21,721 bases of DNA from Pelagophyceae sp. CCMP2097. Its lineage: Eukaryota > Sar > Pelagophyceae. A program made the position numbers and the translations under genes. Below are positions 10,041-21,721 of this stretch, one piece after another (position 1 is the first letter of the stretch; each line of letters begins with the position of its first letter). The stretch spans positions 46,552 to 68,272 of the forward strand of contig MU657387.1 in assembly GCA_026770575.1 (NCBI GenBank). The letters are read 5' to 3'. The notes beneath the pieces are model-generated. The model searched no databases, had not been told where the DNA came from, and was given only the letters and a program-made list of their open reading frames with translations.

Positions 10041-11180
10041 CAAGAACGTGCTACAGAAGCGAGCTGCACAGCCACGAGCAGCGCACGCCCGACAGCTGTC
10101 GGTTGTGCAGAGCGGGCTGATTATAAGCGTGAAGTGGACGGCGGTTCCGTCGATTGACGGCGGCCACGCCCTGAAGATTGCGACCTTTGCAAGAGCAAGC
10201 TGCAGAAGGTAATTGCAAAGAGCCGCGAGCGGCACGCGCGGACGGCTGGCGGCTGTTGGGCGCGCTACGCGAGCTGACGATGGGTACGAAGCGCGCGTTG
10301 GCTCCGCCGATCAGCGCCCAAAACTGCAGCCTTTTCTGTGCAAGCTGCGGGGACGCGCTGCAGACAGCCGCGGGCGGCGCGGGCCAATAGCTGGCGGCCG
10401 TCGGCGGTTGTGCAGAACAAGCTTTGCGAGAATACGCCGCAAGACTGAGCGACAAGAGCGAGCCGCAGGTGACTGCGAGCGGCACGCCAGGACGTCAGGC
10501 GGCCGTCGGTCATGCAGAGCGAGCTGAAAGCGAGCGCTGTACGGACGGCGGCTCTGCCGGCCGTCGCGGTCACGCCCCAAAATTGGAGCGCCACTTTGCG
10601 AGAATACGCCGCAAGACTGAGCGACAGGAGCGAGCCGCAGGTGACTGCGAGCGGCACGCCAAGACGTCAGGCGGCCGTCGGTCATGCAGAGCGAGCTGAA
10701 AGCGAGCACTTTACGGACGGCGGCTCTGCCGGCCGTCGCGGTCACGCCCCAAAATTGGAGCGCCACTTTGCGAGAAGGCGCCGTAAGACTGAGCGGCAAG
10801 AGCGAGCCGCAAATGACTGCGTTTGGCACGCCAAGACGTCAGGCGGCCGTCGGTCATGCAGAGCGAGCTGAAAGCGAGCTCTGCACGGACGTCGGCTCCG
10901 CCGGCCGTCGCGGTCACGCCCCCAAATTGGAGTGCCACTTTGCGAGAATACGCCGCGAGAGCGAGTTGCAGGTGACTGCGAGCGGCACGCCCAAACGCTA
11001 GGCGGCCGTCGGTCATGCAGAGCGAGCTGAAAGCGAGCGCTGTACGGACGGTAGCTCTGCCGTCGCGGTACCGGCTGATATCTGTAGCTCTTTCATCGCG
11101 CGAGTGAGCTGCAGGAACGAACTCTTGAAGGCTGCGTGCGGCGCGCGCCGGCGGCTTGCGGCCGTCGGTTGTGCAGAGCG
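10040..11180. repeat. Satellite block A2 (172-bp monomers)
   Basis: CATGCAGAGCGAGCTGAAAG recurs at 10511, 10683 and 10855 (172 bp apart) and again at 11014 (159 bp, a small deletion). The units are nearly identical to those at 8436-8780. Diverged units fill 10040-10430 and 11030-11180. Each monomer contains a GACGGC...GCCGTC hairpin. Confidence 0.88.
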
Positions 11181-12300: not shown

Positions 12301-12515
12301 GCGCGAGAAGCGCGAAAACACATTGTGCGTTACATATCTCCGGACGCTCGCTTGCGCGGCGAAATGAACCAGTAAGAAAGACCTACCTTTCCACCCGATT
12401 CTAACTCCCTCAGGAATTCCTACGGTTCTACAAGCTTCTTGTAGGAATTCCTACATGCGCCAAGGAGCGTCTGCCGCGTAAACAGACCGAACTCGCCCAC
12501 CGCCGCCCGGCCGCC
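12301..12515. other. Intergenic DNA with a palindromic boundary sequence
   Basis: AGGAATTCCTAC (12412-12423) and GTAGGAATTCCT (12441-12452) form an inverted repeat with a 17-base spacer; the right copy is itself the perfect palindrome GTAGGAATTCCTAC (12441-12454). It contains the right copy of the 15-mer found at 7546. No gene is seen. Confidence 0.65.
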
Positions 12516-13428
12516 ATGGGGAAGATCATGCCTAGGAAGTGGGTGGGGAGCAGCGACAACAGAAGACTAGTGGACGCGAAGCGCCGCACACCCAATGACT
12601 ACGAGCACGTGAAGCGCGCGCGACGCAAGGCGAAGACGGCCCACCGGAAACATGGCGCGTCGGTGGTAAAGCGCAAGCGCACCGTGCGACAATGGGTGAA
12701 CCGCACTCCCGTCGCGCCGCGCGTCAAGCCGCCGTCAACAACCAGCGTCCGCGTCCCTTCGCCTCAACGCCGGAGCCCCGCCGCCGCCCTGCGTAATCGC
12801 CTTCCCCCTTTAGGCACTCCCACGTCGATCTGTCGACAAAGGCGGCTTTGAAGAAACGCACCATCGCGTGCGCACACAAGAAGGCGGCCTGCGCGCGATC
12901 GGTCTCAACGCCGACGCGGCGGCCGCCGACAAGGCGATCGAGAACGGCCGCGTGCAGCAGCGAGCGCCCGGCGCATTCGCCGTCTTCGACAAGGGCCTCG
13001 CGCGGCTCCGCGTCGACCACGTCGGCGCGGTCGCCGTCGCGAAGCAGACGCCGAGCTCTCTCTCTCGCGCGGCTGGCGGCGCCGCGTCCTCGCTCGACGT
13101 CGAGGCCGACCAGATCGAAGGCACCGCGTTTGAGGCGAAGACCATGCTTTCCCCGGCGATGACACTCGCGGCCGCGTCGCCCAATTACTGCTTCGCGCGC
13201 CTCAAGCTGCCCGTCGAGTACGCGCGCGGCGCTGTGGCAGCAGCGGCGCACGCCGCGACGGATCAGCGCGCGGCGACGGATCACCCGGGGCGCCCCTCGA
13301 CGGAGCTGGACTCGGAAGTCTCTTCGCCCGCGGCGCCGGCGTCCGACTCGGAAGTCTCTTCACCCACGGCGCCGGCGTCCGAGTCCCCCGCGGTCGACGT
13401 CGAACGCGTCGACGGCGCGTCTTTCTGA
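12516..13428 (+). CDS. Candidate two-exon gene, basic N terminus and acidic Ser-rich tail, unknown function
   Basis: The ATG at 12516 sits in GGCCGCCATGG, a near-ideal Kozak context. Exon 1 (12516-12665) encodes about 50 residues, strongly basic (KRARRKAKTAHRKHG), perhaps nucleic-acid binding or a nuclear signal. A plausible intron runs from GTAAAG at 12666 to CCCCCTTTAG ending at 12813, and both junctions fall in phase 0. Exon 2 (12814-13428) then has high third-position GC, reads GLNADAAAADKAIENGRV and LSPAMTLAAASPNYCFARLK, and ends in a Glu/Asp/Ser repeat (SDSEVSSPTAPASESP) before TGA. The model gives about 254 residues. I do not recognise the family. The tail lies in the first copy of a 212-bp repeat that also precedes the transposon frame, so the gene could instead be part of the element. 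A frameshift near 12814-12850 is the alternative to the intron. Confidence 0.45.
12666..12813 (+). other. Predicted spliceosomal intron (148 bp)
   Basis: The donor is GTG|GTAAAG and the acceptor is CGCCTTCCCCCTTTAG|GC with a clear pyrimidine tract. It joins two frames with different phase exactly (phase 0 to phase 0). This is a prediction from sequence only. Confidence 0.4.
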
Positions 13429-13800
13429 ACCGCGCATGGCGAGGGCACGGGCGACCTCTCGGCCGGAGAACGGAAGGCCGACGACGACGACGCCGCCGAC
13501 GGCCTCCGCGAGACGGAGCTGGACTCGGAAGTCTTTCGCCCGCGGCGCCGGCGTCCGACTCGGAAGTATCTTCGTTCGCGGCGCCGGCGTCCGAGTCCCC
13601 CGCGGTCGACGTCGAACGCGTCGACAGCGCGTTTTTCTGAACCGCGCATGGCGAGGGCACGGGCGACCTCTCGGCCGGAGAACGCAAGGCCGACGACGAC
13701 GACGCCGCCGTCGGCCTCCACGAGGAGGGCACCGGCGGCGACCTCTCGACGGAGCCGCTCTGCGCGTCCGGGATTCACGTCGCTTTCTGAACAGCGCAGA
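13308..13800. repeat. 212-bp tandem duplication with a third partial copy
   Basis: GAGTCCCCCGCGGTCGACGT occurs at 13381 and 13593 (212 bp apart), and the block through GGCCGACGACGACGACGCCG is nearly identical in both. A shorter relative follows, aligned on TTCTGAAC (13423, 13635 and 13785). In one frame each copy reads DSEVSS...VDVERVD, TGA, then TAHGEGTGDLSAGERKADDDD. Because 212 is not a multiple of three and the second copy also lacks one base, no single frame covers all copies. Confidence 0.85.
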
Positions 13801-13940
13801 GCGACGGCGCCGGCGACCTCTCGGCCCCGCGCGACGACGGAGAACGCAAGGCCGACGACGACGACGACGCCGACGCTGACGGGCTTTACGACGACGGCAG
13901 CGGCGGCGGCGCTTCCCGCGAGGATACCGGCGACGAAAGC

Positions 13941-14168
13941 ATGGAGGTGGTCGCGATGACGCTCGACGGCGCGACCGTCACCATCCCCGTTCGGCCCTCG
14001 GATAAAATGGACGACGTCTTGCGAAGGATCGACGACGCGGCGGACGTCCAAGTGGGGCCGAGTTGCCTCGTTTGGAACGGCCGCTACCTGGCCGGCGACA
14101 ACACGATCGGCGAATACGACATCCGGGGAGGGTCGACCCTCTGCCAAGTCCTCCGGGTCCGCGGCGGC
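13941..14168 (+). other. Ubiquitin-like domain, 76 codons, lysine-depleted
   Basis: The boundaries are set by Met1 and the Gly75-Gly76 pair, where deubiquitinases cleave linear fusions. Six further acidic or small residues (ADDAST) follow. The match is residue for residue with no insertion or deletion, which argues for descent from a ubiquitin gene rather than a remote beta-grasp fold. Confidence 0.9.
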
Positions 14169-15416
14169 GCCGACGACGCTTCGACACCCCCGGCGGGGAC
14201 TCCGACGAGACGAAGTAGCCGCAAGCGTACGCCAAGCAAGCGGGCTCTAGAAGCAGAAGAGCCGCGGGGCGAAGTTCTTATTCACAGCAGCGCCCCCCGT
14301 TCGACGACCGCCCATCTCTTCTCGAGAGGTCGTCAATCCAGCTCTAACTCTACCGTCCAGGCTCGGGCGACGCTCCGCACCGGCATCCTCGGCGGATCGT
14401 TTACCACGATGTACCACGTCTTCGATGCAAAGCTGCAGAAAGAGTTCAACGATTTTAAGTCGGACTTGAAAAAAAACCTTAGCGCGCCGCCGGCGCGCGT
14501 CCAGGACGTCGATGATGCCCGTCTTCTCGAGGCGATGGACGCCCTGCGAGTCCGCCTCCGCGTCACGCCCGCGTGGGTCGCGGCGAAGGTGACCTTCATC
14601 GCGTCCTACAAAGGACTCGACCGCGTCGCCGGCGCTGACGGGTCCGAGACGCGGGTTATCGAGGTCACCACGACGAAAAATCGATGGCTCGTGGCCACCG
14701 TCGTCTACGGCACGGCGGCCCCGGCCGACTCGGACGGCGCCCTCACGCTCCAATCCATTCAAAATGAGATACGGCGCGAGCAGACCGCCCTCCTGTCCAT
14801 CAAGCCGGAGTTTGAGGCGTGGCTCGAGAAGCCCCTGCGGCTCACGGTCGCCTGGCTCGCGAAGCACATGTCGTTCCTCGAAAACGTCGACCACTCCACT
14901 TTTCGCCTGCAAGACGAAGGTGGCCTCACAGCGACGCGCATCGTCGCCGTGACGGTACGCAAGAAAACTCGCAACGTTTCCGTCGTCTACGCCCTCCCGC
15001 CGACGCGCGCGAACATTTCACAAAAGGAGACGCGCAAGATTGAAAACTCGGAGCGCCTGCGCGAAATCGACGCCTTCTTCGCCTTGGACGCAGACACGCG
15101 CGCGACGTACGACGAAACCGCCCAAGGCGCGCTCCGATTGCGGCGCCGGAAGAAGAAGTACGACATGGACCTCCTGCTCTTGTACAATACCTGGACAACG
15201 CGCTGCACGATGAACTCGACGCGCTTCGCGTCGCTACAAAATGCGTTCAAAGTCGGGGTAGGAGGCGTGACGCAGGAGACGATCGACGTTTGCCGCAATG
15301 GCGTCCTCAATGACATCAAGCAGCTCGGAGTCGTCACCAAACGTCACAAGGTCGCCGCCGTCGCTCGCTTTAACCAGGCCTCGGACGCAGCCCTCAAGAA
15401 CATCGAATGCATGTGA
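13941..15416 (+). CDS. Ubiquitin-like head fused to an unrecognised transposon protein
   Basis: The first 76 residues align to ubiquitin without a gap: TLDGATVTIPVRPSD, LVWNGRYLAGDNTI, EYDIRGGSTL and the end VLRVRGG. By hand count 28 of 76 residues equal human ubiquitin. Met1, Leu8, Val70, Arg72, Arg74 and Gly75-Gly76 are kept and Ile44 is Val. All seven ubiquitin lysines are replaced (6 Met, 11 Ala, 27 Leu, 29 Arg, 33 Ala, 48 Arg, 63 Gly); the only lysine is at 22. After GG comes ADDASTPP, then an NLS-like RRSSRKRTPSKRA (about 90-103). Residues about 150-490 form an alpha/beta-looking region I do not recognise. The start is the ATG from which the ubiquitin register is exact. The TGA at 15414 falls in the zinc segment, so the true protein probably continued. 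Confidence 0.85.
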   Translation: MEVVAMTLDGATVTIPVRPSDKMDDVLRRIDDAADVQVGPSCLVWNGRYLAGDNTIGEYDIRGGSTLCQVLRVRGGADDASTPPAGTPTRRSSRKRTPSKRALEAEEPRGEVLIHSSAPRSTTAHLFSRGRQSSSNSTVQARATLRTGILGGSFTTMYHVFDAKLQKEFNDFKSDLKKNLSAPPARVQDVDDARLLEAMDALRVRLRVTPAWVAAKVTFIASYKGLDRVAGADGSETRVIEVTTTKNRWLVATVVYGTAAPADSDGALTLQSIQNEIRREQTALLSIKPEFEAWLEKPLRLTVAWLAKHMSFLENVDHSTFRLQDEGGLTATRIVAVTVRKKTRNVSVVYALPPTRANISQKETRKIENSERLREIDAFFALDADTRATYDETAQGALRLRRRKKKYDMDLLLLYNTWTTRCTMNSTRFASLQNAFKVGVGGVTQETIDVCRNGVLNDIKQLGVVTKRHKVAAVARFNQASDAALKNIECM

Positions 15417-15857
15417 AGCGCGTGTGGTCGGCGAGACCCAGCTGTGGAGAGTTTCAACGTCACGCTGCCCACCGAGGACTTCGACGAGGGCCATTGGATT
15501 CGCGTCTCCGAGGCTGGGCGCGCGTACCACGACGCCATGCACCGCGTCGACGTTCCACTCTACGTCCCGTCGGAAATCGGCTACGCCCGATTCGTGGTCC
15601 CCAAGGCGTCGTTCCGAAACTTTAACGTACGCGCGCGGGAAGACGGCCGCGATGGAAGCGACGTCGACGACGCCCCGGCGATGTACCACGTCATCCCAGA
15701 AACCATCCCCGTCTTGGGCAACGGCGACGTCGTTGCCACCCTCTGCGGTTCGTGCCACCGCGCCTTCAACGCCGCCAGCGTGGAGCACATCCTCGAAGAG
15801 CTCGAAACCGCGCTCGACACCGAAACCGTCAGGACGCGGGCGCAGCTGAAACGCTGA
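15417..15857 (+). pseudogene. Zinc-binding segment of the transposon protein, between two TGA codons
   Basis: The frame is continuous with the ubiquitin-headed segment. Right after the TGA at 15414 comes SACGRRDP, and about 105 residues on come CGSC (15744-15755) and HRAF. Helitron-type proteins often begin with a C-x2-C-G-x-R-D type pair followed later by a C-x2-C pair. In that pattern the TGA sits at the first Cys (TGC or TGT changed to TGA by one base). AMYHVIPETIPVLG lies between the pairs. There is no ATG near the start; a GTG at 15444 is not a believable initiator. The segment ends at TGA 15855, beyond which the frame goes on as GWLLRAQRLHEAYSKR. I read it as a broken internal part of the polyprotein, not a separate gene. 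Confidence 0.6.
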
Positions 15858-16865
15858 GGATGGCTCCTGCGCGCGCAGCGCCTCCACGAAGCGTACTCGA
15901 AGCGCATGGAACGCAGCGAGCTCGTCACTCTCCTCGAGCCGATCGTCTTCACGCTGAGTGCGATCTTCGCACAAAAAGAGGCCACTGACGACGCCGACGC
16001 TGAGGTCAATGCCGAGGCCGAGGCCGAGGCCGACGGCGACTTCGTCGACGAGGACGACGCTGGAACCGAGTCGGACTCGAGCGTCGACGAGGAAGAAATT
16101 GGCGACGGCGACGGCGGCGCCGCCGACGCCGCCGCCGATGGGACGCCGACGAAGACGCCGGCGAGCGACGGCGGGGCCAACGAGGAGGAGCAGGACCATC
16201 CCGGCGAGGGTAGCTCGGTTCTCGCCACGGCGAACGGTTACTATAATGTCGGTGCTCCGATCGACAGCATCGCGGTGGACAATGACGTCGGGCGCCGCCT
16301 CGTCACGGCACGCTGCGGCAATCAAGTCGACAATACCGACATCCCCGACCTAGGGCGCTTTAGGTTGGGCGACGAGACGCTACGCGCCGCCGTCCAGAAC
16401 TACCGCATCTACCTCGTCGACGACGAAGGGCACTCGTCTCAGTTGGAAAAGAAGGCGCTCGCCCTCGACGACTTGCGCCTGCGGCCCCACATCCTGTGGA
16501 ACCTCATGATGGTAATGGGGCGCGTCCCAGACGAGGGCCTCCAGCACTACGCCTTCGCGGCTTGGGCCGAGAACCCACAGCCCGTCGAAGAGTTCCAGAG
16601 ACTCGTCGCCAACGCCGTAGTCCCCAATTTGCTCCGGCAGACGGTCGTACACTCGACCGACACGGACCTCGAGGACTCCGTCCGGCCGTCCGACATCGCT
16701 CGGGTGCTCGTTGATGCTTCCGGCGGGGCGGCGGACGTCGACGATTTCGACGGTTCTTTTCCTCTTTCGCAAGTCGGCGTCTTACCCGTGGCCTCTCAGA
16801 GCATGAGTGCTGTCATCCACGGCATCCAAAAGACCGTGCGCGGCCGCACCTTCGCCGACGACGAG

Positions 16866-17245
16866 GACGAAGTCCCTCCCAACGACAATGCCGCACCGGA
16901 TGCGGGGTCTGCGCCGCAGGACACCCCGCCAGCGGCGCGAACCCTCGACCCCGCCGACGAAGACGTCGGCAAGGACGACGGCGAGGCCGAGTCCGAGGAC
17001 GACGATGAAGGACCTGCCCGCGACGGTGCTACGTCCGACGACAACGACGCCACCGCCGACGACGACGAAGTCCCTTTCCAGGACGACGGCGCGCCGCCTG
17101 GCGGCGTCGGGTCGAACGATTCGGAATCTTCGATGCCGGATTCCCCGCCGACGGCGCGAACCCTCGACTTCGCCGACGAAGATGCGGGCAAGGACGACAT
17201 CGACGAAGACGAAGGACCCCCTGCCCGCGGCGGCGCCGGCGGCGA
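16866..17245 (+). repeat. 198-bp in-frame tandem duplication of an acidic linker
   Basis: GACGAAGTCCCT starts at 16866 and 17064, 198 bp (66 codons) apart. Both copies read DEVP..., later P(A/T)ARTLD(P/F)ADED and GKDD, then an Asp/Glu run and PAR. The length keeps the frame, unlike the 212-bp repeat upstream. Confidence 0.85.
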
Positions 17246-17405
17246 CGCCGGGACCCGGGCCGGCGCGTCGCGCGTCGCCGGCACCGTCGACGCGGGACCT
17301 TCCCCCACCTCCGCCGGCAAACCTCCTGGGGCCACGGACGTCGGACCGCATGCGCCGCTGGGCTTAGAGCCGCCGCCGCCGCAGACGACGGGCGACGACA
17401 CGCGC

Positions 17406-17447
17406 TGCGACAAGTGCGACGCCGTGGACCACGCGACGGCTTCTTGC
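17406..17447 (+). other. CCHC zinc knuckle
   Basis: CDKCDAVDHATASC gives the exact C-x2-C-x4-H-x4-C spacing (residues 501-514 of the 15906 segment). Such knuckles bind single-stranded nucleic acid in retroelement Gag and in some DNA-transposon proteins. Confidence 0.8.
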
Positions 17448-17549
17448 CCCCACTTCACCGACGGGCGCACGGACCACCCGGACGCGAAGCGGAAGAAGCT
17501 TGAGGACATGTTGGGCTCTGACAAGGGCAACGCGTTCCTCGAACGCGCC

Positions 17550-17990
17550 GACGAAGTGAAGCAGCCCGGCGACGGGCTGTGCCTCTTCCACTCGCTCGCA
17601 TGGGGCCTCGAGCGACTCGGCGAAGCGCCACAACGCATCAAGGGCCCGGAGCTCCGCAATATGCTCATGGGATGGGTCGCACTGCACCCGGAGACGTCAG
17701 TCTACGGCAAGACGCTCGAGGAGTGGGTCAAGTGGGACTCGAACACTACCGTCGACGCGTACACGACTAGCATACTCTACGGCAAATGGGACGGCGGCAT
17801 CAAGATGGCCGCATTTGTGCACCTCTACGGCGTCGGCGTCCACGTCTACGAACGCTCGAGCCGCGGCGACGGCGTGTTCCCGTTCAAGCGCATGGCGCGC
17901 TTCGACGCGCCGACCGACGGGGCCGCGGCGGCGCAGGCTGCGTTCGTCTCCATACTTTATGACAGCGGGAATCACTACAACGGCCTCGAC
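17550..17990 (+). other. OTU-type cysteine protease domain
   Basis: QPGDGLCLFHSLAWGLERL has the OTU catalytic loop D-G-x-C-x-F with Cys559 (codon 17580). YDSGNHYNGL supplies the catalytic His690 (codon 17973), 131 residues on, a normal OTU spacing. All residues I can check are intact, so this domain may be under less decay than the Rep. Confidence 0.85.
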
Positions 17991-19480
17991 CCGGGCGGCG
18001 ACGCCGTTGAGCTCGGCGACGAAGAAGCCGAGCAGCGTACGTACAAGCTTCGCCGCATGAAGTTACCCCCCAACGACTATGCGCAGTTCGGCATGGGTCT
18101 CCTCGGCACGTTCCCCGACCTATTTCCTCTCGGCCGCGGCATCGAGAGGAAAAAGATCCCCAAAGCCAAGCGTCGGCGCCACTTACTCACGTATGGAGAC
18201 AACCGGTTCGCGCAATGCATGCCGTTGGTCTTCCACTTCGCGAGCCTGACGCAGCGTATCGCCGTCAACTTGGGCGTCGCGGCTTCCGTCAAATGCGACC
18301 CCGCGCGGTTTGAAAAGTTTACCGAGATGATCAGCGACCCGGGCTTCCGGGAGTCGTTGGACCGCGCGAACGCGGATCGCACGGGCGAGGACGCCACCGC
18401 CATCCTGAAAAAGGTCCTCGGGTACTGCCGCCTCTCGACTTCGAAGGTGCCCTGGGGCGAGGGCCAACGGGCGAACGAAATCACCGGCGCTATGGCCACG
18501 CACCGCTGCATGAGCTCGGCAACGATGTTCATCTCCGTGGCGCCCGACGACGTCAAGGACCTCTTCACCGTCGCCCTTAGCACGCCGTGGACGAGCCTCA
18601 ACCGTTTTCCGACGACGACCGGCGTCGACTTCGACGCGGCTGTGCGCAACCTGCAGGGCGCCACCCCCGGAGAACGCGGGGCTGGCACCCGTCTCGACAT
18701 GAGCGAGTCCCGGCTGCAGCGCAAGGTCGCGGAGAACCCCGTGGCAGCGGCGCTGGCATTTCAGGTGACGATGGACAACGTGTTGCAGAACGCCATCGGC
18801 GGCTCGCCGCAGGCGATGAGGGACGTGCCGATCACCGAAGTGCCCATGGGCTGCGTCGGGCGCACTGCGGCATGCGACGGCGTCAAAGAGTGCAACGACC
18901 GGCACGCCATGTACATGCACGCGCAGTCCCGCCGGGGGATCACGCCCAACCTCGTCAACGACGTCGCCGACGACCCGGTGCTACGAGCCGCCGTCGTCGC
19001 TGCGCTCGACACGCAGATTTCTGGCGAGTTACCTCTCGCGTTACACGCACTCGACGTGGCGAGGAAAGCATTAAGGGCGCCGAGCCGCCGAGACCGCGCC
19101 TTCAACGTGCCGCCGATGGGCCCGGACTTCGACGCGCACGTGGGGTCCGTCCTCATCAACAAAAACATACACAGTCACATGGCCACGTACACCAAAGGCT
19201 CGTTCGGCAAGGACGGCTGCCGCATGTGCGCTCGCTGGCCGCACGACGTCGCCGACTCGCGCTTCGTGCAACTCGTGCCACACGACCCGAAGCGGTACGA
19301 CGGAGACGACGTCGCCGCTGGAGACTGGGCAATAAGTCCTCGCGACGGCGACGAATGCGACGCGACGCGCCTTCGATGCCGCGCCTGCTTCGCTAAGGAC
19401 GATGACGCCAATCAAAGCCCCGACGACGGCGACGTCATCGCGGCGTATGCGCGCCGCCGCCTCGCGTACGACACCGCCAA

Positions 19481-20398
19481 GGACCCCGAGCCAAGGTCGC
19501 GTCGGCCAACGAGTCGTTCCGAGACGTCGAATCGCGCGCAATCGCCCTCGACATTGCGCGCAGGCCTTTATACGGCGCCGGGCCAAATGGGCTCGACCCC
19601 GACGCGACCGACGCCGCGGCAGCCGAGCATTTCGACCTGGAATCGCTCGAAGACGGCGCCGACGTCCTAGAGGCCATCTTGACGACGCGCGGGTTTAAAG
19701 TCGCCGACGGACACGAAGGCGACGTCCACCTCCGAAGGCTGCTGTCTCGTATCATCGCCCCTGGGCAGCCTCTGCACGCGTTCATGACGAACGCCGCGGC
19801 CCAGGCTCCCTTGCGCGACGCCCTCGTCGACCTTGCGACGGGCCAGCTCGTCCCGACGGAGCCCCCGCAGGGCGAAGTCGGCGACGCCATGCGGGACGAC
19901 GACGGTCGACCCGGGGCGGCCGGCGCCGACGGTCGACCCGGGACGGCCGGCGCGACGCAACGGACGCCCCCGGCGACTGCGGATACCCACGACGTGTGCG
20001 ACGCGCGGGCGGTGAACCTGCGAAAGATCTTCGCGGGTTGGTTCGAGCCCAAGTTTCGCTGCCGCAATGGCATGGTTGCGACCTTTTCGTCCATCCTCAC
20101 CGGGACGATCAAGAACAACGCGAATCCTCTCTCGCTCGGCGCCGGCAGCGGGTCGGCGGCGACCACGTTTTACCAAAACAAATACACAACCAAAAACGAC
20201 TTTAAGCACGCAGCGTCGCTGTCCGTCCTCGTCGACAGTTACAGCAAAATTAAGGCGCATACATCCACCGCGGAGGACTCGGGCACCGCGACGCGCTTCG
20301 CGAAGCACTTCCTGCAAAGCGTGTGCAACAAGTCGACGCACGAACTCAAGGGCACGCAAGCCGCGGCCGTCGCGCTCGGCCTGACATCATCGTTCCAT
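19481..20398 (+). pseudogene. Helitron Rep C-terminal part with the two-tyrosine motif
   Basis: This is the continuation of the Rep in the next frame. It opens at least from 19481 (KVASANESFRDVESRAIALD) and runs to TAG 20399. A Pro/Gly/Asp-rich linker with a short repeat (DGRPGAAGA, DGRPGTAGA) lies near 19904-19960. The conserved part is FSSILTGTIKNNANPLSLGA followed by TTFYQNKYTTKNDF. Here the tyrosines at 20171 and 20183 fit the Y-x3-Y catalytic pair of Helitron Rep, each Tyr forming a covalent link to DNA in the family. HELKGTQAAAVALGL matches the usual E-x-x-x-x-Q-A-A-x-x-L-L-G segment. A start at 19679 is not real. It ends inside homology, so TAG is a disabling change unless read through. 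Confidence 0.8.
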
Positions 20399-20401
20399 TA
20401 G

Positions 20402-20635
20402 CGCAAACTCGCCTTTACAAACGCCCGTGCGCTCGCTCATCTCGCCCAGACGACGCGCCCCGTCGGAGACGAGGATGACCCGATTTACGAGCCTCACGAG
20501 GGGCATTTCTTCTCTGAGTGGCATGGGCCCGATTTAGTGAATCTCACGAAGAGCCGAATTAAGACGTTCGTCGATGACTTGCTTTGCAAAAATGGCACGC
20601 TCACGCTGGGCGACCTACACAAGCGCGTCCTGTAG
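20402..20635 (+). pseudogene. Short Rep-to-helicase linker between two TAG codons
   Basis: In the same frame as the segments on both sides it reads RKLAFTNARALAHLAQTTRP, then HGPDLVNLTKSRIKTFVDDL, and ends at TAG 20633. The sequence after that TAG carries on with DLRSFLDLSTTENKAWFEAT, so the amber codon again interrupts a continuous coding stretch. No domain is recognised. Confidence 0.6.
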
Positions 20636-21622
20636 GACCTCAGATCCTTCTTAGACCTGTCAACGACGGAGAATAAAGCGTGGTTCGAAGCCACAGTGCT
20701 GTACTGTAGAGGCGGCGGCAAAGAAGACTCCGAAGTGGGATCAGCGGAGTCTGGCAGCGACTCGCTGCGGTCCAGAGACTCCGAAGACTCCAACAACGAA
20801 CACTCTTACCCCATTGAACGTCCAGACGGCGGCAACGAAGACTCTGAAGTAGGGTCAACGGAGACTGGAGCCGACTCGCCGCGGTTTGGAGACTCCGAAG
20901 ACTCCAACCACGACTCCGACGGTGGCTCGCCAGCGGCGCTATGCGACGTCGAGTCGGTCGTCGACTCGGACAACGCCGCGGCTGACGACGATTCCGAGAT
21001 TGCCGAGAAGCCGGCCACGGGGGAGCCGCAGCTGCCACGCCCGACGGCCCCTCGGCGTCGGGTACATGCGACGGCCCCTCGGCCGAGTGCTCGGGTACGT
21101 TCGACGGCCCGTCGGACGATTGGTCCGAGGGTACAAATGGGTTATAACAAGTTGCGGTCTTGCTATCAACTTCACTGTCTTTGGGAAGACTTGCCACCGA
21201 CGCTTCTCCCGGGTTCACCTCACGACTATATCCTCGAGATGCGCGTCGTCGACTTCCTCACCGCCGGGAACGTGCGAAACGAGTGGATCACTGAACTCGT
21301 CGTGTGGGCGCAGCGGCTCGGCTTTACCGTCGACTTTACGAACGACCCCAACGTTACACCGACCGGTGCTTCTTGTGGTCCGAAAGCCGCATGGACGGCA
21401 TTGAAGCTTATGCGTGCACAAGAGATCGAACCCGGCACCTTTATGACAGTCGACGTCAGTGCAGCCATCACGCCCAAGGTCCGAATCGCCGGGTATTGCG
21501 CCGCTTTAGTGACTGTCGAAGATCAACGGCTTCTCGTCGAGGACCTCGAGGCGATGGCGAGACTTAGCGACGAAGCAAAAACCTTGTGGGATTGCGGGAA
21601 ACGGCGCCTCGACGTTTTATGA
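20636..21622 (+). pseudogene. C-terminal transposon segment: acidic repeats and an unrecognised domain
   Basis: Three parts are visible. The first is an acidic Ser/Asp/Glu region made of a 114-bp (38-codon) in-frame duplication (20723 and 20837, EDSEVGSAESGSDS against EDSEVGSTETGADS). The second is an Arg/Pro-rich linker (PTAPRRRVHATAPRPSARVR). The third is a compact domain of about 155 residues: YQLHCLWEDLPPTLLPG, FLTAGNVRNEWITELVVWAQ, then PTGASCGPKAAWTALKLMRA, ending CGKRRLDVL and TGA. The SCG and a downstream VDVS segment hint at a cysteine-peptidase-like fold, but no full catalytic set can be assigned. It occupies the place where the helicase is expected and has no Walker A motif. The 20696 start often chosen here is internal; the frame opens right after TAG 20633. 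Confidence 0.6.
20723..20935 (+). repeat. 114-bp in-frame tandem duplication (acidic module)
   Basis: GAAGACTC starts at 20723 and 20837, exactly 38 codons apart. Both copies also share GGAGACTCCGAAGACTCCAA or its near match. Length conservation in codons supports this frame as formerly coding. Confidence 0.8.
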
Positions 21623-21721
21623 CAGACCCAAACAAAAGACGGCGGAACCCCTGGGGCTGCGACTCCGTTCATCGGCGACACGGAAGTGGCCAGGGCGTTC
21701 TTGGGATTACGCGGGGAGAAA
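21623..21721 (+). other. Window end, no feature
   Basis: About 100 bases after the last stop. Nothing is recognised and no Helitron-type terminal hairpin plus CTRR is seen. Confidence 0.5.

Follow-up and report, generated by a model that had tools for sequence, protein, structure and literature searches.

What is a relative of ubiquitin doing inside the coding region of a transposon, and could it still act there as a ubiquitin-type module? The question is raised by a 76-residue segment, 13941-14168(+), in a 21,721-nucleotide stretch of DNA from the pelagophyte CCMP2097. This whole stretch (contig C216:46552-68272, reaching the end of C216) is referred to below as the window, and all numbering is that of window positions on the (+) strand. 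The genome examined comprised 638 contigs and 66 Mb; the window holds the C216 copy of the element, other copies are named after their contigs in the same genome (C192, C224 and C122), and P0002, P0003, P0004 and P0005 are deposited CCMP2097 proteins. An earlier note on this DNA had described the segment as a ubiquitin stripped of its seven lysines at the head of a 491-codon Helitron product, and had suggested that it might cap ubiquitin chains if conjugated, or serve as a cleavable tag. Judging from sequence comparisons, the locus is a decayed Helitron-type element in which a diverged ubiquitin-like domain and a likely OTU-type protease share the same coding region; together the two would likely have given the element protein an internal cut site or a handle on the ubiquitin pathway.

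Layout of the element

The element spans 12454-21721(+), its left limit being the start of blastn similarity to C192 and its right end lying beyond the contig end. A basic reading frame at 12516-12851, for which Pfam gave no match and which has a counterpart in C192 without a Met, may represent the true N-terminal region of the element protein. Further on, Tandem Repeats Finder reported two copies of a 212-bp repeat (13299-13724), partly coding acidic sequence and also found in C192 and P0003, and an acidic segment (13803-13940) runs in open frame directly into the ubiquitin-like domain, as it does in both C192 domains (C192-A and C192-B) and in P0003. The VRGG tail and linker that follow (14157-14360) are open here but treated as intronic by the gene model of P0003, and the remainder of the first reading frame (14361-15413), conserved in P0002 and P0003, has no Pfam match. 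Two further tandem arrays lie elsewhere in the window, at 10422-11062 (172 bp, 3.8 copies) and 2336-2556 (30 bp, 7.3 copies).

The ORF at 15906-19670 holds two matches, each under its Pfam cut-off in the window: an OTU-type cysteine protease domain at 17565-17978 (PF02338, E=0.009 over the whole profile, 1-128) and a Helitron Rep-like domain at 18177-18920 (PF14214, Helitron_like_N, E=1.7e-4; 22.3 bits against a cut-off of 28.9). The Rep match rises above the cut-off in C192 (30.9 bits), and the OTU match does so in C224 (27.6 bits), though not in P0005, C192 or the window. GDGLC and GNHY, which we take to be the catalytic Cys and His motifs of OTU proteases, were present in three of three copies; the predicted OTU structure had a pLDDT of 39, too low for its fold to be compared. 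The frame changes between about 19.5 and 19.7 kb, and the element frame is resumed at 19679-20401 in another frame, where C192 is open for 336 codons. A further element frame at 20696-21622 has a matching frame in C192 and no Pfam match; it contains GASCGP, followed in C192 (L014:1961-4815) by GHHYFTVAF in another frame, a stretch that presumably resembles a cysteine protease and for which Pfam returned no protease match in either the window or C192. The helicase position lies past the end of C216 and is known from C192, where a PIF1-like match (PF05970, 22.1 bits against a cut-off of 25.9) with the Walker A sequence GPGGSGKS was found downstream. With Rep-like and OTU-like matches in the window and, in C192, a Rep match over the cut-off and this helicase-like match, the placement of the ubiquitin relative inside a Helitron-type element stood.

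What did not stand was its position at the N-terminus, for 50 codons ahead of the supposed start are open in the same frame. The acidic sequence there is conserved, GASRE[D/E]TGDE[S/G] directly preceding the domain in all four copies, C192-A has Ile instead of Met at domain position 1, and in P0003 the domain begins at residue 151, after 150 other residues; because of these features we read the domain as internal in the element protein. Nor does an intact 491-codon product seem to exist, since the window copy is decayed: its frame ends at an in-frame TGA (15414-15416) where all four sequences showing the site (C192, C224, P0002 and P0004) read on, and a second in-frame TGA (15855-15857) is absent from P0002, P0004 and P0005. 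We also considered reassignment of TGA and rejected it, as other copies carry TAG or TAA stops and have no stop at the TGA places of the window. C192 and C224 contain other stops, and all genomic copies seen carry stops or truncations, none being intact.

The ubiquitin-like domain and its copies

The domain aligned to ubiquitin without gaps over all 76 residues, with 28 of 76 identical, and as such the earlier description of an ungapped ubiquitin relative was borne out. PF00240 matched with E=9e-9 (35.4 bits against a cut-off of 25.4) and phmmer scored 44.9 bits over residues 1-76 against the ubiquitin sequence that occurs most often in the PDB, so that chance is not a reasonable explanation for the match. 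The Leu8, Val44 and Val70 patch is present in the window domain together with the tail LRVRGG (LRLRGG in ubiquitin); Leu8, Val44, Val70 and Arg72 are kept in all four copies, as is the hydrophobic core, position 69 excepted. Changes beyond the lysines include Arg42 to Cys or Ser, Gln49 to Tyr and His68 to Cys. Structure prediction gave the beta-grasp fold that had been anticipated, with modest confidence (mean pLDDT 65.4, TM about 0.75 to PDB ubiquitin chains), and the best PDB matches of the model were ubiquitins; the alignment behind this model consisted of seven sequences, of which four were ubiquitins or ubiquitin repeats of the host. Capture from a ubiquitin-type gene, followed by divergence along with the element, is the probable origin of the domain. 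The genome also encodes, in one open frame, a host ubiquitin fused to a Skp1-type domain (L006:1498-1965 on C230; PF00240 1.7e-30, PF03931 5.1e-17), and its tail RGGADEA resembles RGGADDA of the transposon, which may hint at where the captured sequence came from.

Four such domains were found at three loci (C216, C192 and P0003), C192 having two, A and B, by duplication of the unit of acidic segment and domain. The window domain shares 88% identity with C192-A, 91% with C192-B, and 55 of 72 residues with P0003 (24% different); the best match of P0003 in the part of the genome examined is 82%, its own locus lying outside that part. Genome searches scored the best candidates, and copy numbers are thus lower bounds. 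The earlier note had regarded related elements lacking the domain as a sign of recent chance capture. Two copies do lack it, but both are partial: C224 is 5' truncated, starting only past the domain at the place that corresponds to window 14864, and C122 consists of a 358 bp leader, 97% identical to window 12827-13184, that ends about 760 bp upstream of the domain site, with no domain in the 2.6 kb examined. All three loci that show sequence on both sides have the domain, and no two-sided copy without it was seen. The leader itself (12454-13139) is 76-79% identical between the window and C192, against 94-95% for the body; this divergence and the 97% match of C122 may perhaps reflect recombination between element variants.

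Across the genome, PF14214 gave 13 matches on 12 contigs and PF00240 gave 41; only C192 appears in both sets of contigs, the Rep match of the window's contig being below the reporting level. Applied to 18 stretches holding or adjoining Helitron loci, of which 12 were only about 3.5 kb long, so that farther or more diverged domains would escape, a profile of the domain found only the window domain and the two of C192. Another Helitron lineage, L075 (C110) and L044 (C177), has long open frames in which no ubiquitin-like domain was found, and OTU-family matches of near-equal score, mostly in open frames of 156-195 aa, recur on more than 10 contigs, a pattern suggesting that a gene family or mobile element has been amplified. 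Protein searches, which required shared five-residue words and could miss distant relatives, turned up relatives of the element in CCMP2097 alone: with the OTU-Rep part as query they yielded one protein, P0005, and with the P0003 domain region only P0003 itself among 163 candidates.

Lysines and selection

The absence of all seven ubiquitin lysines, central to the earlier interpretation, held for three of the four copies (window, C192-A and C192-B), but P0003 retains Lys29, so that one copy with one canonical lysine exists. Lysines 6, 11, 27, 33, 48 and 63 are gone in all four copies and that at position 29 in three. Lys22, correctly noted as the sole lysine of the window domain, occurs in that copy alone; C192-A and C192-B have no lysine and P0003 has only Lys29. 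That all seven lysine sites should fall among the 48 of 76 changed sites has P=0.034, and for P0003 at least six of the seven among 42 of 72 changed sites has P=0.13. Measured against the 6.0% Lys of the rest of ORF1, the low lysine count has P=0.05 in the window and 0.009 in C192-A, and against the 3.3% Lys of ORF2 it has P=0.28 and 0.08, respectively; the copies are related, and these P values are accordingly not independent. Base composition as the whole cause of the loss was rejected, given that host ubiquitin keeps all seven lysines and that ORF1 outside the domain has 6.0% Lys. Lysine scarcity is common to the copies but constitutes weak evidence of selection.

Substitution rates were estimated by the Nei-Gojobori method on pairs among the genomic copies (window, C192-A and C192-B). 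The dN/dS of the domain was 0.83 between the window and C192-B (12 changes), 1.18 between the window and C192-A (13 changes) and 0.40 between C192-A and C192-B (13 changes), values not distinguishable from 1. Between the window and C192 it was 1.54 for the acidic segment (6 changes), 0.87 for the linker, 0.96 for the rest of ORF1 (inflated by a frame-shifted stretch in C192), 0.44 for ORF2 before the OTU domain, 0.81 for the OTU domain and 0.64 for the Rep-like domain. The domain values do not demonstrate constraint and speak against asserting function firmly for these copies.

Possible roles and known systems

We tentatively prefer a reading in which, in active copies, the domain would be a ubiquitin-type fusion module, cut after RGG by a deubiquitinase that is probably the element's own OTU. 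According to this proposal the OTU domain or a host deubiquitinase would cut after the RGG tail and thereby separate the acidic N-terminal region from the Rep-helicase portion, and a module with so few lysines would be poorly ubiquitinated. We lean this way because LRVRGG aligns ungapped to LRLRGG and Gly75-Gly76 is kept in all three genomic domains, because the patch residues persist in all four copies and the OTU motifs in three of three in the same element, and because C192 alone, besides the window's contig, joins Rep and ubiquitin-family matches among 12 Rep contigs. The partly available text of PMC9741609 lends further weight, as it reports that zebrafish Helitron deubiquitinases of the VTD class are active and that some such elements also hold OTU domains, there untested. 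Against this, the P0003 model splices the tail out, one tail reads SGG, the stretch has intron-like features, the domain dN/dS is not clearly below 1, and the OTU match falls short of the cut-off in the window as well as in C192 and P0005. A bolder extension, which we regard as speculative and on balance improbable, would be a transposon family with its own ubiquitin/deubiquitinase pair in one polyprotein, in which the nearly lysine-free RGG module would be the cleavage signal, the candidate OTU the protease and the Rep-helicase the part released.

Much hinges on whether the tail is translated. The GG emphasised earlier is indeed kept in the three genomic domains (RGG, RGG and SGG), but in the P0003 gene model QVLR is spliced directly to ARATLR, so that VRGG and the linker (window 14157-14360) are lost. 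If that model were right, the domain might instead be an integral, uncleaved docking or regulatory module whose binding partner is a ubiquitin receptor, the proteasome or the OTU itself, and we consider this possibility nearly as likely as the cleavable module. The donor GTCCGC resembles GTCCGT, the frame-implied donor of a host ubiquitin intron in L012, and the 3' end of the stretch has CTAAC (CTTAC in C192-B) followed by CCAG or TCAG, a plausible branch point and acceptor. The GC3 of the stretch is 0.60-0.70 against 0.73-0.90 in most flanking intervals (two further on also have 0.63 and 0.70), and the changes between the window and C192-B are spread evenly there over the codon positions (6, 6 and 5). 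An internal position would also suit such a role, as many non-conjugated UBL proteins carry their domain internally. Yet the tail is in frame with that of ubiquitin, which would not be expected of a random intron start, and the stretch is open and indel-free in the window and C192-B. Moreover, deposited gene models have proved unreliable here, because that of P0005, which agrees letter for letter with C224 over residues 293-804 and without mismatch over residues 1-292, leaves out two stretches of 25 and 42 codons within residues 1-292, one surrounding a stop and the other free of stops, and so drops conserved coding sequence. On balance we slightly favour an RGG tail that is translated rather than spliced out.

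It may also be that a piece of a ubiquitin gene, captured by a single Helitron lineage, has no function and simply drifts with dead copies. The lack of clear purifying selection, the restriction to one element lineage in one organism, with no homologue outside CCMP2097 in the protein searches, and the stops or truncations in every genomic copy seen would all agree with such a passenger, but at 37% identity to ubiquitin the domain still keeps its length, core (position 69 excepted), patch and GG, and it does so in copies that differ by 24% within the domain (window against P0003), which makes this account rather unlikely in our view. The original proposal, a conjugatable lysine-free ubiquitin released to cap host chains, would draw on the GG tail and the near absence of lysine, and it is the least likely of all. 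The changes at Arg42, Gln49 and His68 would make charging by host E1 doubtful, a domain that is not N-terminal would need a second cut to be freed, and Lys29 persists in P0003; together with the lysine statistics given above, this leaves a designed chain cap weakly supported and, in our estimation, very improbable. The cleavable fusion module remains our working interpretation, and the joint occurrence of ubiquitin-like, OTU-like and Rep-like sequences in this decayed copy is a real and uncommon combination of domains.

In cellular ubiquitin fusions, such as Ub-S27a and this genome's Ub-Skp1 fusion, a ubiquitin fold ends in GG and is followed by more protein, as it would in the element if the tail is translated. 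Host ubiquitin is, in contrast, about 96% identical to human ubiquitin and has all seven lysines, whereas the transposon domain, which is internal, has 37% identity and at most one lysine. In a set of related host genes (L009, L010, L011 and L013, on C15, C129 and C7) a long N-terminal region precedes one or two diverged repeats of ubiquitin, and a tail starting MYH[K/E]SSAQD is common to them, L013 containing stops. Pestivirus polyproteins, which appeared among the fold matches, similarly harbour a ubiquitin unit within the polyprotein of a mobile genome, and these inserts have a role in processing; however, the pestivirus insert is near-intact host ubiquitin, while the transposon domain is long diverged and its cleavage only proposed.

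Among transposons, Ginger1 and Mutator-like elements with OTU or Ulp1 (PMC2836005) combine a transposon protein with a ubiquitin or SUMO protease, as our element probably does, but belong to another transposase class, and the accessible part of that source mentions no ubiquitin-like domain. The earlier remark of knowing no Helitron described with such a head agrees with the open-licence literature on Helitrons or transposons and ubiquitin, or on pelagophytes: the available portions of PMC9741609, PMC4067079, PMC6431247, PMC2836005, PMC12062965 and PMC9756366 describe none. It is unsettled why transposons carry ubiquitin proteases at all, and as far as their available text goes PMC9741609 and PMC4067079 offer only proposals. 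Helitrons and Helentrons with VTD or OTU domains (PMC9741609; PMC4067079 for OTU domains in Helentrons), as portrayed in those portions, share with our element the Rep-like part and the candidate PIF1-like helicase and OTU-type parts, but the ubiquitin-like domain, which is mentioned in neither, is extra here, and an element that has both this module and an OTU would provide a candidate substrate in cis for that question.
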